Below the pieces are notes generated by a model. That model had not been told where the DNA came from. It saw nothing but the letters and a program-made list of their open reading frames with translations, and did no database searches. The translations under genes were made by a program, and so were the position numbers. Shown piece by piece: positions 28,483 through 34,549 of a stretch of 59,593 nucleotides of DNA; positions within the stretch are counted from its first letter, which is position 1; the number at the start of each line of letters is the position of its first letter. Source of the DNA: an uncultured Bacteroidales bacterium. GTDB taxonomy: Bacteria > Bacteroidota > Bacteroidia > Bacteroidales > UBA4417. The DNA is taken from assembly GCA_903913645.1 (NCBI GenBank), contig CAIWMA010000572.1, positions 1 to 59,593 of the forward strand, given 5' to 3'.

Positions 28483-28752
28483 AATGAAACTTATTGTTCA
28501 GGATTTTTGATTGTTTCTTCCATGTTGCAAAGTCTGACAACTATTTCCTGCAAATGTTTGTTTTTTATTCACTTTACCTGATATTACCAAGTACATACTA
28601 ATCCAGATCAATTCTAAATATTGTCGATTATAATTCGAAAACCGTAATCGCAAAAATAAATATTTTACACATAAAAACATAATTATCAGTAGTATAATGA
28701 AAGATCAGAAAAATAAATTTAAGAATAAACTATGTTAATGAAAAGTAATTTG
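28483..28752. other. Upstream region between the ahcY and leader-peptide promoters
   Basis: AT-rich DNA between two divergent promoters. I see no coding frame with protein-like composition and no further structured RNA. Confidence 0.4.
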
Positions 28753-28760
28753 TAATTTTG
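28753..28760 (+). promoter_or_regulatory. -7 box (TAATTTTG) of the cysteine-leader transcription unit
   Basis: An exact TAnnTTTG match followed by C. The leader-peptide ATG is 20 bp downstream. The -33 element is not obvious. Confidence 0.65.
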
Positions 28761-28779
28761 CCCTTCAACTATTAAATCA

Positions 28780-28851
28780 ATGAAGAATAGCGCTCAGAAT
28801 ATTTTAAATGTCACTTGCTGCACAAATATGTGTTGCCTGATGTGTTTTTAA
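28780..28851 (+). CDS. 23-residue cysteine-rich leader peptide
   Basis: ATG at 28780, TAA at 28849-28851. The sequence begins MKNSAQNILN and ends VTCCTNMCCLMCF. Five of the last 11 residues are Cys (positions 13, 14, 18, 19, 22), the rest including two Met. It lies between a good -7 box and a terminator hairpin that starts 43 bp after the stop codon. This is the arrangement of an amino-acid attenuator, in which ribosomes stall at cysteine codons when Cys-tRNA is short. The composition is very unlikely in random AT-rich DNA. I recall cysteine-rich leader peptides regulating sulfur genes in other bacteria, for example actinobacteria, but I cannot say whether this one has been described. It precedes the TonB receptor gene by 286 bp. 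Cysteine codons use both TGC and TGT. Confidence 0.75.
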   Translation: MKNSAQNILNVTCCTNMCCLMCF

Positions 28852-28856
28852 TATAT

Positions 28857-28927
28857 GGAGAGCTTATTTACTAAGATATTATTTAAAAGTAACAGGCTTT
28901 CCGGAAACGGGGAGCCTTTTTCATTTT
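28857..28927 (+). promoter_or_regulatory. Attenuator: antiterminator strand plus intrinsic terminator
   Basis: The terminator is AGGCTTTCC (28894-28902) with GGGGAGCCT (28909-28917): 9 bp including two G-U pairs, loop GGAAAC, followed by UUUUCAUUUU. The alternative partner for AGGCTTTCC is GGAGAGCTT (28857-28865), which also forms 9 bp with two G-U pairs. GGAGAGCTT begins 6 nt after the leader stop codon. A ribosome that finishes the peptide would cover it, leaving the terminator free to form. A ribosome held at the first Cys codons (28816-28821) leaves it exposed, so the antiterminator can form. A weaker upstream partner, AGCGCTC (28789-28795), could pair with the exposed strand when no ribosome is present. 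Confidence 0.72.
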
Positions 28928-29137
28928 AAGATAAGTGTATCGTATTGCCATTAATAAGTTGAAGAAAATGACGTTTTAGCCAACATTGAATTTCAGAATC
29001 AGAACTATTTGAACTCATTTATCTGATTTACTGTTATTTGACAAGTTCACTAATTTATTTTTAATCATTTCGCAGAACACAAAAAATCACTACATTTATC
29101 AGTACAATGTCTAAGTCCTAACCAAAACAAACCACTT

Positions 29138-31792
29138 ATGAAAAAAACTCTAAAACTTGTTATTGCAGCACTTTTAATTTTTTCAGGCAATTTGCTCTAT
29201 TCTCAAAATCATACGATAAAGGGAATCGTAAAAGATGAAAAAGGAGCACCCCTGGAATTTGCATCAATCGCTATTAAAGGTACCACCAGCGGCACTATAA
29301 GTGAAACTGGCGGGAAGTTCTCACTAACAACAGAATTGAGCGCACCAACTTTACTGATTTCCTCCATTGGTTATGAAACTAAAGAAGTTGTGGCAAAAAG
29401 CGACTTCATCGAGATCCAACTTAATTTATTGAACACCAGCCTCAACGAATTTGTTGTTGTTGGAAGCCGTAATCCTAAATTAAGCAAATTGGAAACCCCT
29501 GTTCCTGTTGATGTTGTGAATATGATGAAATCAAGGACTCTTACTCCTCAAAACTCAGCAAACGACATTTTAACCTACCTCATTCCTTCATTTAACTCCA
29601 ATCGTCAATCAGCATCCGACGGAACCGAACATATTGATCCTGCATCCCTGAGAGGCCTCGGTCCTGATCAGGTTTTGGTTTTGATTAATGGTAAAAGAAG
29701 GCACACCACTTCGTTGGTAAATTATCAGAATACCGTTGGTAATGGATCGGTTGGAACCGATTTAAGCGCCATTCCTGCTTCGGCAATAAAACGAATTGAA
29801 GTTTTACGTGATGGAGCTGCAGCACAGTATGGCTCTGATGCAATTGCAGGTGTTATCAATTTGATTCTGAACGACAATATAGGTTTTCAAGCCGAAGCAA
29901 CTTATGGTCAGACTTCCCGTAACGATGGACAAACGGCGGATGTAAATCTGAATTATGGAGCCAAGCTTGGCAAAAAAGGTGGTTTTATCAATCTTACTGC
30001 TGAATATAACCATCGCGAAAAAACAAACCGGTCACAAAATAACAACCTGATCATCTTTGATCAATCGGCTTATAATAATTATTTTTCCTACGATTTCTGT
30101 GAAGATCCGGCCGCGGCCCGCAAAATTGATGACGATGCACTTGCTGCCGCTCATATGACACGTGACGATTTTAACTTCCAGGTTGGTGATGCCAAAATTC
30201 AAAATATCCAGTTTTTCTTAAACTCCACAATTCCATTAAATAAAAATGCCGAATTGTATTTTTCAGGTGGTGCCAGCAAACGAAATGGTACAGGGTTTGG
30301 ATTCAGGCGATTGCCAAGTGAAACCGAAAATGTTGTTGCTGCATTATTTCCTTTTGGGTTTCAACCCGAATTGAAATCCAACATTAATGATCTTTCCATG
30401 ATTTCAGGAATACGGTTTAAACTATCAGACTGGAAATTCGATGTAAGCAACACTATTGGAAATAATAACTTCAAATACGAAGTGGCCAACTCAAACAATG
30501 CTTCTATGGGTGCAAGCAGCCCGACTGATTTTAAGGCTGGAAGCCACTCGTTTTTACAAAACACCGTGAATGCCGATGCATCGCGTTCCTATGCATCTTT
30601 TTTAAGCGGACTAAATGTAGCCTTCGGCGCTGAATTCCGTTTGGAAGAATATCAGATCAAAGCCGGTGAAGAAGCTTCGTACATTAATGGCGGAGCGCAA
30701 TCATTCCCCGGATTTTCTCCCCTGAATGCAGTAAATAAACAAAGACACAGTCTCGGAGCTTATGCTGATGTTGAAGCTGATATAACTAAAAGATTTTTAG
30801 TTGGCGTAGCCTTACGTTATGAAAATTATTCGGATTTTGGCAATACAACTACTGGTAAATTAAGTTCAAGGTATAAAATTACCAACAACTTTTTCGTCCG
30901 TGGTTCAATGAGCACTGGATTCAGAGCTCCTTCTTTACAGCAAACCTATTTCAATAATATTGCAACCGATGTTGTGGACGGTGTGATGTTAAATTCAGGT
31001 ATTTTCAGAACTGATAGTCAGCTTGCAAAGGAACTTGGAATTCCTGCCCTGAAAGAGGAAACTTCCAATAACTACAGCCTCGGCCTTGTGTATACACCAA
31101 TCAAAAAATTGAATATCACCATCGATGCATACCAGATTAACATCAAAAACAGGATTATCCTTACCGGTAATCTGGGGAATGACGCTTATGGCAACCCTGT
31201 TCCTGAACTGCAGGCTTTATTCGCTCAATATGGTGCTCAAACAGGACGTTTCTTTACCAATGCCATCAACACTACAACCCAGGGACTGGATTTAGTGATT
31301 GATTACACTTTTGCATTAGCTGGCGGAAACCTGAATGCTTCATTGTTGTACAATTTCAACAAGAACACTGTTGATGATAAGTTAAATAATCTTCCGGCGG
31401 CATTCGTTGGACAGGACTCAGTTTATTTTGGACCGCAGGAAAGAAGCCTGATTGAGACCAACACTCCAAGAAGCAAAGGAACCCTGGCCTTGAATTACGA
31501 AATCAAGAGAATCTCCGTTTTGTTGCGAAACACTTATTTTGGAGAGGTTACCAGGGATGGTTTCCCCTTTGGCACAACCCAGAAACATGCCGGAAAAGTT
31601 GTTACCGATCTCACTTTTTCCTATAAGTTGACACCAAAAATTGTGTTCGCTTTTGGTGCGAACAATCTTTTTGATGTATTTCCTGATTTACAGGTTTACG
31701 ATAACAGCTATTTCGGCGTATTTAAATATGCCCCTGTTCAAATGGGAACAACAGGCTCTTACTTTTTTGGAAGGATAAGTTGCAATCTTTAG
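29138..31792 (+). CDS. TonB-dependent outer-membrane receptor with carboxypeptidase-like N-domain
   Basis: 884 residues. Signal peptide ~1-22 (ends LLYSQ). Residues ~23-105 are the carboxypeptidase-D regulatory-like (CarbopepD_reg_2) domain: IKGIVKDEKGAPLEFASIAI. The plug domain is at ~115-245, with VDVVNMMKS, LRGLGPDQVLVLINGKRRH and VLRDGAAAQYGSDAIAGVINLIL. A 22-strand barrel fills ~260-884, with the TonB-receptor motif FRAPSLQQTYFNN (~588) and a C-terminal strand ending GRISCNL. It is not a SusC, since there is no SusD partner and the size is smaller. It imports an unknown substrate using TonB energy. The cysteine attenuator ahead of it points to a sulfur-containing nutrient, though this is inference. 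A strong terminator follows directly. Confidence 0.9.
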   Translation: MKKTLKLVIAALLIFSGNLLYSQNHTIKGIVKDEKGAPLEFASIAIKGTTSGTISETGGKFSLTTELSAPTLLISSIGYETKEVVAKSDFIEIQLNLLNTSLNEFVVVGSRNPKLSKLETPVPVDVVNMMKSRTLTPQNSANDILTYLIPSFNSNRQSASDGTEHIDPASLRGLGPDQVLVLINGKRRHTTSLVNYQNTVGNGSVGTDLSAIPASAIKRIEVLRDGAAAQYGSDAIAGVINLILNDNIGFQAEATYGQTSRNDGQTADVNLNYGAKLGKKGGFINLTAEYNHREKTNRSQNNNLIIFDQSAYNNYFSYDFCEDPAAARKIDDDALAAAHMTRDDFNFQVGDAKIQNIQFFLNSTIPLNKNAELYFSGGASKRNGTGFGFRRLPSETENVVAALFPFGFQPELKSNINDLSMISGIRFKLSDWKFDVSNTIGNNNFKYEVANSNNASMGASSPTDFKAGSHSFLQNTVNADASRSYASFLSGLNVAFGAEFRLEEYQIKAGEEASYINGGAQSFPGFSPLNAVNKQRHSLGAYADVEADITKRFLVGVALRYENYSDFGNTTTGKLSSRYKITNNFFVRGSMSTGFRAPSLQQTYFNNIATDVVDGVMLNSGIFRTDSQLAKELGIPALKEETSNNYSLGLVYTPIKKLNITIDAYQINIKNRIILTGNLGNDAYGNPVPELQALFAQYGAQTGRFFTNAINTTTQGLDLVIDYTFALAGGNLNASLLYNFNKNTVDDKLNNLPAAFVGQDSVYFGPQERSLIETNTPRSKGTLALNYEIKRISVLLRNTYFGEVTRDGFPFGTTQKHAGKVVTDLTFSYKLTPKIVFAFGANNLFDVFPDLQVYDNSYFGVFKYAPVQMGTTGSYFFGRISCNL

Positions 31793-31875: not shown

Positions 31876-33165
31876 TTGAAAAAAATCACCTGGATTACTG
31901 CCACAGCCTTAGTGGTTTCAAACATGATAGGAACCGGAATTTTTACTTCCTTAGGCTACCAGGTTGCCAGTTTGACAAATACGTATACCATAATTTTGCT
32001 CTGGTCAATTGGTGGAGTTTTAGCCTTGTTCGGTGCTTTCTGTTATTCCGAGTTAGGGAATTATTATAAAGAAACCGGTGGTGATTACATCTATTTATCA
32101 CGTGGGTTCCATCCTGTTTTCGGATACCTGAGCAGTTGGGTTTCGCTGATTGTAGGCTTTTCGGCACCTGTTTCACTGGCAGCTTTGGCAATGAGTAAAT
32201 ACCTGCAGATTTTCGGATTGGGATTAGGTAAAGGCTTCGCTATTGCCGTCATCATTCTGATAGCGCTCTCGCAATCATTTAGCTTGCGAACAAGCAGTGA
32301 TTTTCACAACCTTTTTACGCTGCTGAAAGTTGTATTTGTTTTAGCACTTATTGGCCTGGGCTTGTACATTGCTCCTGATGCTGTGAATGCTTTGAATTTT
32401 AGCACAAGTTGGAAAAGGGAAGTGCAAATGCCTGAATTTGCAAGTTCACTAGTGTTTGTTGCCTTTGCTTATACCGGCTGGAATTCGGCTTCGTATATTG
32501 TTGGTGAAATTAAGAATCCAAAAAAGAATCTCCCCAAATCTCTCATTGTCGGCACTTTGTTCGTGACATTGGTATATGTTTTTATAAACTATGTTTTTCT
32601 GAAACATGCGTCAATCCTTTCCCTTGTTAACCAGGAGGATGTAGCATCTATTGCCTCTATAGGTTTCCTGGGAATGAACGGCGCTAAATGGGTGAGTTTC
32701 TTTATTGCCTTACAATTAACTGCAACTATCAGTGGTTATTTATGGATTGGCTCTAGGGTAAGTTTTGCTACAGCAAAGGAGAATAAGCTTTGGAGCTTTA
32801 TGAATAAATCAAAAAATGATATTCCATATCTGGCATTATGGATGCATGCAGGTATTGCAATTGTGATTATTCTGACTGGCGAATTTGAACAAATTTTCAT
32901 TTATGCTTCCTTTCTGCTTCAGATTTTAAGTACTATTGCAGTAGCTACAGTGTTTACAATCCCATCACTTAAAAGGCACATATTCAGAGGGAAATATTTC
33001 TGGATTTTCCCTGTGGTATTTTTAGCTTTTGGGATGTATATTTGCTATTTCACCTTTGTAGCTCACCCTAAAGAAAGCATCATAGGATTATCAACCATAG
33101 TCTTAGGATTGATTGCTTACTCGTTCGATACGAAACTTTCAAATAAATCTGACATTATCTTATAG
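31876..33165 (+). CDS. APC-superfamily amino acid permease
   Basis: 429 residues, about twelve membrane segments. The APC TM1 signature VVSNMIGTGIFTSLGYQV is at ~12-29. TM2-TM3 contain GGVLALFGAFCYSELG and TGGDYIYLSRGFHP. The start is TTG at 31876, because the TTG codon directly precedes KKITWITATAL, needed for TM1; the first Met is already inside it. Proteins of this type exchange or import amino acids across the inner membrane. The substrate is not deducible, and one should not over-read the cysteine leader upstream, because a strong terminator lies in between. It sits 67 bp before the SAM hydrolase gene, so those two are likely co-transcribed. Confidence 0.86.
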   Translation: MKKITWITATALVVSNMIGTGIFTSLGYQVASLTNTYTIILLWSIGGVLALFGAFCYSELGNYYKETGGDYIYLSRGFHPVFGYLSSWVSLIVGFSAPVSLAALAMSKYLQIFGLGLGKGFAIAVIILIALSQSFSLRTSSDFHNLFTLLKVVFVLALIGLGLYIAPDAVNALNFSTSWKREVQMPEFASSLVFVAFAYTGWNSASYIVGEIKNPKKNLPKSLIVGTLFVTLVYVFINYVFLKHASILSLVNQEDVASIASIGFLGMNGAKWVSFFIALQLTATISGYLWIGSRVSFATAKENKLWSFMNKSKNDIPYLALWMHAGIAIVIILTGEFEQIFIYASFLLQILSTIAVATVFTIPSLKRHIFRGKYFWIFPVVFLAFGMYICYFTFVAHPKESIIGLSTIVLGLIAYSFDTKLSNKSDIIL

Positions 33166-33232: not shown

Positions 33233-34135
33233 ATGAAACAAATTATCACCTCTCTGTTAATTATGTTGGTTGCATTTCAACTGACGGCACAAAATAAAAT
33301 AGTGGTTTTTCAAACCGATTTCGGATTAAAAGATGGCGCCGTTTCTGCAATGAAAGGCGTTGCTTCAAGTGTTTCGCCTGATTTAAAATTATTCGATCTC
33401 ACACACGAAATTCCCGCTTACAATATTTGGGAAGCGGCTTATCGCCTGGTACAAACAGCTCCGTACTGGCCTGCAGGAACCGTTTTTGTTTCGGTGGTTG
33501 ATCCGGGAGTGGGCACCAGCCGGAAATCGGTGGTATTAAAAACAAACAGCGGCCATTTTTTCGTTACACCCGATAACGGCACGCTTACTTTGGTTGCCGA
33601 AAGTATGGGCATTGCCGAAATCAGGGAAATTGATGAAGCTGTTAACCGGAGAGCAAATTCCGAAAAATCATACACATTTCATGGCCGTGATGTATATGCT
33701 TATACAGCTGCCAGGTTAGCTGCAGGTGCAATTACTTTCGAACAGGTTGGTAAAGAATTGCCAAAACAAGTGGTGAGTATCCCTTATCAGAAAGCCGTGC
33801 TGGAAGGGAAAAAATTGAAAGGCAACATTTCAATTCTCGATATCCAATACGGAAACATCTGGACCAACATCACAGCCGATTTGGTCAAGCAACTCAATCC
33901 GCAATATGGCGATCTTCTGCATGTAGTTATTTATCATGATAAAACTAAAGTATTTGAAGGCAATGCACCTTACAGTCAGACCTTTGGCGCAGTTGCAAAA
34001 GGAATGCCCTTATCCTATCTGAACAGCCTGATGCAATTATCGTTTGCGTTAAATCAGGGAAGCTTTGCAAAACTTTATAAGATTGAAAGCGGAAATAACT
34101 GGAATGTAGAAGTTACCGTTGTTACGAAAAAATAG
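33233..34135 (+). CDS. Exported SAM hydroxide adenosyltransferase (SAM hydrolase, DUF62)
   Basis: 300 residues. The N-terminus MKQIITSLLIMLVAFQLTAQ is a signal peptide, so the enzyme should be periplasmic. The mature part has the DUF62/fluorinase fold: VFQTDFGLKDGAVSAMKG, FDLTHEIPAYNIWEAA, SVVDPGVGTSR, VTPDNGTLTLV and FHGRDVYAYTAARLA. The conserved Asp of TDFG and Asp-Asn of TPDNG are present. The family splits S-adenosylmethionine with water to adenosine and methionine. Such an enzyme outside the cytoplasm is odd, because SAM is normally an intracellular cofactor. It could salvage SAM or another adenosyl compound taken up through the outer membrane. It directly precedes the SAM riboswitch of metH. 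Confidence 0.85.
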   Translation: MKQIITSLLIMLVAFQLTAQNKIVVFQTDFGLKDGAVSAMKGVASSVSPDLKLFDLTHEIPAYNIWEAAYRLVQTAPYWPAGTVFVSVVDPGVGTSRKSVVLKTNSGHFFVTPDNGTLTLVAESMGIAEIREIDEAVNRRANSEKSYTFHGRDVYAYTAARLAAGAITFEQVGKELPKQVVSIPYQKAVLEGKKLKGNISILDIQYGNIWTNITADLVKQLNPQYGDLLHVVIYHDKTKVFEGNAPYSQTFGAVAKGMPLSYLNSLMQLSFALNQGSFAKLYKIESGNNWNVEVTVVTKK

Positions 34136-34294: not shown

Positions 34295-34331
34295 CATCTT
34301 CAAATATTCCTTTCACACTAAGGAGGTTTGA

Positions 34332-34440
34332 GTTATACAGAAGGGGGGAGAGAACAGGCTCACTGAACCTCTGGCAACCACCACCACATGGTGTGTAAGG
34401 TGCCAATACCTGATCCCGATACTAATCGGGAGATTATAAT
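34332..34440 (+). promoter_or_regulatory. SAM-I (S-box) riboswitch
   Basis: The core is unmistakable: GAACAGGCT (34352-34360), CTCTGGCAACC (34369-34379, kink-turn side), AAGGTGCCAATACCT (34397-34411) and CGGGAGAT (34427-34434). P1 pairs GTTATA (34332-34337) with TATAAT (34435-34440), and P3/P4 hairpins are seen at CCACCACATGGTG and TCCCGATACTAATCGGGA. It binds S-adenosylmethionine and lowers metH expression. The expression platform (34441-34549) has AACACA/TGTGTT outer pairing and a further hairpin, but no U-rich terminator, so control could be translational. Confidence 0.88.
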
Positions 34441-34504
34441 TAAAACACACTCCTGCTCCCGGAATACGGAGAAACTGAATGTGTTAAGTTTAAAACTTCT
34501 GCCG

Positions 34505-34529
34505 TGCTGCTTTGTTTAAGTAAGCAGCA
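34505..34529 (+). promoter_or_regulatory. Hairpin in the metH leader
   Basis: TGCTGCTT and AAGCAGCA form an 8-bp stem with a 9-nt loop, 20 bp before the metH ATG. There is no U tract. It could be part of the riboswitch expression platform near the ribosome binding region. Confidence 0.5.
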
Positions 34530-34549
34530 GTGTAAAACATATAGGTAAG

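Follow-up and report, generated by a model that had tools for sequence, protein, structure and literature searches.

The trp, his and leu attenuators of enterobacteria combine regulatory codons with alternative antiterminator and terminator hairpins, and a ribosome finishing the leader peptide masks the strand called region 2. Cysteine attenuators as such are already known, from mycobacteria and from Rhodobacterales. In Rhodobacterales, the uORFC-8-2 motif found before cysS consists of a short frame, in which the tandem codons 14-15 specify Cys, and an intrinsic terminator behind it; ribosome-mediated cysteine attenuation has been proposed for this motif (PMC8632094). In Actinobacteria, cysteine attenuation was predicted or proposed at cys operons (PMC1262725; PMC4633059), and it has been shown in mycobacteria according to PMC13236596, which cites Canestrari 2020. 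Leader-peptide attenuation has also been proposed in Bacteroidota, namely in Flavobacterium psychrophilum (PMC9723704) and Bacteroides thetaiotaomicron (PMC7366714), and the passages on these attenuators mention no cysteine, metY or TonB receptor in connection with them. The literature that we searched yielded no Bacteroidota attenuator linked to cysteine, metY or a TonB receptor, although this literature is incomplete and such an absence is weak evidence. A preliminary description of the locus studied here had known of no cysteine attenuator on a TonB receptor of Bacteroidota; this agrees with our search, but the principle itself has precedents elsewhere (PMC8632094; PMC1262725; PMC4633059).

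Here we analyse a leader unit in a 59,593-nucleotide stretch of DNA from an uncultured Bacteroidales bacterium (hereafter the window). It precedes its presumed target, a TonB-dependent receptor gene on the forward strand (29138..31792) encoding plug, barrel and carboxypeptidase-regulatory-like domains (Pfam PF07715, PF00593, PF13715). We consider it likely that this unit is a trp-type, ribosome-mediated transcription attenuator, which senses cysteine as charged tRNA-Cys and was copied from metY to the TonB receptor. The case is built on its parts, homology, conservation, link to metY and alternative folds, all established by sequence and computation. If the reading is true, this would be, to our knowledge, the first cysteine attenuator known in Bacteroidota and the first on a TonB receptor.

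The unit shares with the trp, his and leu attenuators its regulatory codons, its alternative hairpins and the predicted masking of region 2, but it has cysteine in place of Trp, His or Leu, a weak 1:2 protector and a transporter as its target. By description, uORFC-8-2 resembles it in frame, tandem Cys codons and terminator; however, that motif belongs to Alphaproteobacteria, stands before cysteinyl-tRNA synthetase and has a different structure, whereas the unit described here occurs in Bacteroidota and has the TonB receptor and metY as its presumed targets. In the polycysteine leaders of mycobacteria, a short frame upstream of cysteine and sulfur genes likewise has its Cys codons close to the stop, and cysteine-responsive attenuation is associated with it (PMC4633059; PMC1262725; PMC13236596). 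Unlike the unit in the window, they are leaderless, have no intrinsic terminator that could be found, and are described as translation attenuation; the window unit, with its ATG 20 nt past the -7 box, is predicted to be leadered and has both terminator and antiterminator.

The leader unit upstream of the receptor

All parts of the unit lie on the forward strand. The promoter block AAAAGTAATTTGTAATTTTGC (28741..28761) is invariant in 20 of 21 columns across the four copies that we found (see below) and includes TAATTTTG (28753-28760), a -7 box of the Bacteroidota type TAnnTTTG. From the putative start site, an untranslated stretch of about 13 nt would lead to the leader frame, 23 codons encoding MKNSAQNILNVTCCTNMCCLMCF (28780..28851, stop included). 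Its five Cys, at residues 13, 14, 18, 19 and 22 (codons at 28816-28821, 28831-28836 and 28843-28845; span 28816-28845), form a regulatory-codon cluster near the end of the frame. Region 1, AGCGCTC (AAAGCTC in one copy; 28789..28795), is a weak candidate partner for region 2 in full-length minimum free energy (MFE) folds. Region 2, the antiterminator strand GGAGAGCTT (28857..28865), starts on the sixth base past the leader stop, with five bases between, and pairs over 9 bp, two of them G-U, with region 3, AGGCTTTCC (28894..28902). Region 3 is common to the antiterminator and the terminator: through the loop GGAAAC it also faces region 4, the terminator 3' arm GGGGAGCCT (28909..28917), and the stem at 28894-28917 runs directly into the U-rich tract TTTTCATTTT (28918..28927). 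Direct reading thus recovered what the preliminary description had listed, namely the -7 box, the 23-codon frame with five Cys, the terminator and a second strand in perfect pairing with its 5' arm; the 6 nt after the stop codon at which it let the antiterminator begin are correct if counted to the first base of the strand.

Could such an arrangement arise by chance, from a random short frame lying beside an ordinary terminator in an AT-rich intergenic region? Short frames abound between genes, and a single terminator there is unremarkable. The terminator at 28894-28927 is the sole terminator-like site in 28483-29137, where 0.1 are expected in shuffles. Shuffling the 42-nt spacer produced a 9-bp complement of the terminator arm in 0.05% of cases, and such a complement occurs in 35 of 8508 segments of that length drawn at random from the window. 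Nevertheless, we take the unit as real because of its homology and conservation and not because of the pattern itself. Three conserved homologs before metY, a phylum-wide enrichment of Cys and the invariant pairing strands contradict chance, which is hardly credible as an explanation; on these comparisons, the unit is not a chance pattern. The receptor leader matches no Rfam covariance model, the sole match in the window being a SAM-I riboswitch at 34330-34442, and a loose threshold gave nothing relevant at the receptor and metY leaders (those of L051 and L053 included).

Homologs before metY

A DNA search of the genus's 16 genomes uncovered three homologs, which cover the unit from its promoter block into the U run (28741-28921), one in the same genome (contig C237) and one each in genomes G008 and G012. 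All three precede the gene of a 434-aa O-acetylhomoserine sulfhydrylase (MetY), a sulfur assimilation enzyme serving the very amino acid that the leader codons name. Behind MetY, G008 and G012 encode a DUF4395-like protein, CysK and MetX (all these gene names were assigned by reading translations). The homologous leader peptides are MYNKAQVILNASNDTMMCCCMYF, MYIKAEEILNASNNTMMCCCMCF and MYIKASVILNASNNAMMCCCMCV. The homologs are 90-94% identical among themselves and about 70% (70-74%) identical to the window copy.

Across the four copies, which differ by about 30% overall, 121 of 187 columns are invariant, and regions 2 and 3 (each 9/9) account for 18 invariant columns out of 18 (hypergeometric P=0.0002). 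The leader frame keeps its 23 codons free of indels and retains Cys18-Cys19 throughout, while Cys13-Cys14 are extra in the window copy, which has gained two Cys. The terminator is present in four of four copies, and its 3' arm has changed from GGGAAGCCT in the homologs to GGGGAGCCT in the window with pairing retained. Substitutions in the frame show no third-position (synonymous) bias, which fits a leader where only some codons matter and, alone, is no proof of translation; it is the open length and the retained Cys codons, and nothing else, that suggest a translated frame.

At the genus's metY genes, a second Cys frame, for example MAFQTSITNPLFHMCMCCCMILRMRNG, follows behind the first terminator (L051:8020-8200, L053:5545-5725, L213:9370-9560). 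This tandem unit has its own terminator, GAGCCCTTCCGC...GAAAGGGCTC with a U run; GCGGAAYGG, within the conserved 'RNG' codons just past the Cys run, may be its antiterminator. The metY of G001 has the second unit only, and the receptor copy consists of unit 1 only. Of the two Cys attenuators that would thus stand in tandem before the genus's metY operon, the first is the one of which the receptor unit appears to be a copy, and the direction of copying was presumably from metY to the receptor.

The preliminary description made conservation in close relatives a test of its proposal, and the proposal does not pass this test at the receptor but does so at metY. Upstream of orthologous receptors (83-89% identical), the unit is absent in 8 of 8 congeners, which have other leaders there; at metY, it is conserved in three homologs. 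No receptor orthologs above the cut-off were found outside the genus among 393 genomes, and among the receptor paralogs L017-L021 no leader has four Cys (L020 has one unrelated frame with three). Because none of the eight orthologs carries the unit and the unit matches a metY leader copy, it appears not to be ancestral at the receptor: a single species would seem to have placed its receptor behind a metY-type leader. The cysteine-codon control by terminator and antiterminator put forward in the preliminary description is well supported as a mechanism by the homologs, the metY context and the folding, but not as an ancestral feature of the receptor.

That the receptor example is found in one species only counts against an attenuator and invites another explanation, in which the transcript of the duplicated metY leader mostly serves as a short stand-alone RNA, or the leader has become a dead remnant, and the receptor uses its own, nearer promoter, which could bypass the attenuator. 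Indeed 211 nt separate the U run from the receptor ATG, and the orthologs L003, L004 and L005 have a promoter-like box, TAnnTTTG, about 75 nt before their receptor ATG. However, this box is degenerate in the window (TATTTTTA, 29056..29063, forward strand, from an alignment of receptor upstream regions), and at about 30% divergence the promoter, Cys18-Cys19 and both pairing strands have been kept and two Cys gained. We therefore regard a remnant or stand-alone RNA as improbable.

Upstream of the orthologous receptor, L002, L005 and L006 have different promoters, behind which lie short GC hairpins with T runs, for example CGGGTTTCATACAACCCGAAATTTTGTTTT, and no Cys frame. These are possibly a different attenuator or a small RNA; they have no match in Rfam.

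Folding and proposed mechanism

At equilibrium, the terminator always wins. The outcome differs when the nascent RNA is folded up to region 3 with a ribosome in place (its footprint was assumed to reach about 12 nt past the A site). A ribosome placed at any of the Cys codons lets the antiterminator form 8.7 of its 9 pairs in the window copy (8.3-8.7 in the nascent folds overall), and one placed at the stop leaves it 3.6 pairs (2.5-3.6 over the four copies). In these models, the nascent transcript would follow the kinetic logic of trp. The 2:3 antiterminator also forms without a ribosome, and the protective 1:2 hairpin is thus weak; it is present in full-length MFE folds and hardly formed in nascent ones.

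We propose the following sequence of events. Transcription would start directly past the -7 box and the 23-codon peptide would be translated. When cysteine is plentiful, the ribosome would reach the stop and cover region 2 (28857-28865), so that the 3:4 hairpin ends transcription. When cysteine is scarce, the ribosome would wait at a Cys codon and region 2 would pair with region 3, blocking the terminator. The TonB receptor would then be transcribed, probably together with the permease and SAM hydrolase genes behind it. Because a metY-type Cys leader precedes a transporter gene, cysteine shortage probably switches the receptor on.

The receptor and its neighbours

Upstream of the receptor lies a divergent sahH. 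Downstream on the forward strand are an amino-acid permease (31876..33165, PF13520; order kept in congeners), probably co-transcribed with the receptor, a SAM hydrolase/SAM hydroxide adenosyltransferase-like protein (33233..34135; PF01887, PF20257) and metH, preceded by the SAM-I riboswitch. The same succession, from sahH through receptor, permease and SAM hydrolase to metH, recurs in G012 and, in part, elsewhere. It is this neighbourhood alone that speaks for the receptor's tie to cysteine supply, and from its place in this SAM/methionine cluster the receptor may, as the preliminary description proposed, take up a sulfur compound. This matters since the genomes of the phylum hold dozens of TonB receptors without an assigned substrate. 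More generally, promoter, leader and terminator would have moved together, as one complete module that left a biosynthetic gene for a transporter gene, tying a receptor to a nutrient.

Within 34330-34549, which includes the SAM-I riboswitch, a GTG-started frame between riboswitch and metH, MLSLKLLPCCFV, encodes two Cys inside a hairpin-forming stretch. Its presence is probably due to chance.

Cys-run leaders at metY across Bacteroidota

Cys-rich frames are not restricted to the genus. Across many Bacteroidota, 47 of 106 metY upstream regions contain a Cys-run frame (at least 4 Cys among the last 12 residues), whereas the reverse strand has none and dinucleotide shuffles give about 0.2; among the species are Mucilaginibacter, Pontibacter, Hymenobacter, Chryseolinea and Bernardetia. 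Cys is the sole strongly enriched residue at metY leaders (3.9-fold; Met 1.4-fold, the other 18 residues none). A blind search for CMCCCC codons in 395 genomes of the phylum returned seven matches. Six of them lie directly before metY; the remaining one is antisense to a coding gene. The reversed pattern was found in none of the genomes listed. A looser Cys-run pattern, TGYTGYTGYTGYTRR, was dropped because it had too many matches, with coding repeats a likely source.

Cys-rich leaders can also be read in another way, in that metal or redox sensing with ribosome stalling has been proposed for some of them. Here the peptide itself would sense copper, zinc or redox state and stall the ribosome, irrespective of tRNA-Cys charging. 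Cys clusters do bind metals, and the solved structures nearest to the receptor are those of siderophore and B12 receptors, which match it over the plug region. Yet the gene associated with these leaders phylum-wide is metY, the spacing of the Cys varies, the remaining peptide is unconserved and no fixed metal-type motif is seen, and we judge such sensing very unlikely. The attenuator reading exposes a phylum-wide metY leader that is testable in cultured species.

In other clades, a strict search for U-run terminators after the Cys runs found mostly none, so the mechanism there may differ. In Cytophagales metY leaders (L108, L112, L114, L131), a conserved motif around TGCC(A/C)(A/G)GTGACAGG, a putative RNA element, lies about 40 nt past the Cys-frame stop with a flanking helix and no U run.

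A riboswitch before the metY leader

Among the metY loci scanned, 38 have a SAM-I riboswitch close upstream (L108, L113, L106, L114, L166 and 33 others), and at every one of these an ATG stands 6-14 nt past the aptamer, mostly 7-10, where about 0.5 per position would be expected over the 38 loci. This ATG opens the Cys-run frame where such a frame exists. It is possible that a SAM-I riboswitch followed by a short frame amounts to a riboswitch-gated leader peptide. In the genus of the window, the metY leaders (L051, L053) have no SAM-I match in Rfam. Taking these findings together, the metY leader of Bacteroidota may have two inputs, with SAM gating a peptide that reads cysteine; the lineage of the window, without the riboswitch, would have a terminator-based unit that was copied to a TonB receptor, placing outer-membrane uptake under cysteine control. 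For this joint reading, we see the arguments as evenly balanced.

The short frame past SAM-I ends in a Cys run at about half of the loci. Three Sphingobacterium loci have a Met/Arg/His repeat at its end, for example MSMRMRMHMHLPTC.
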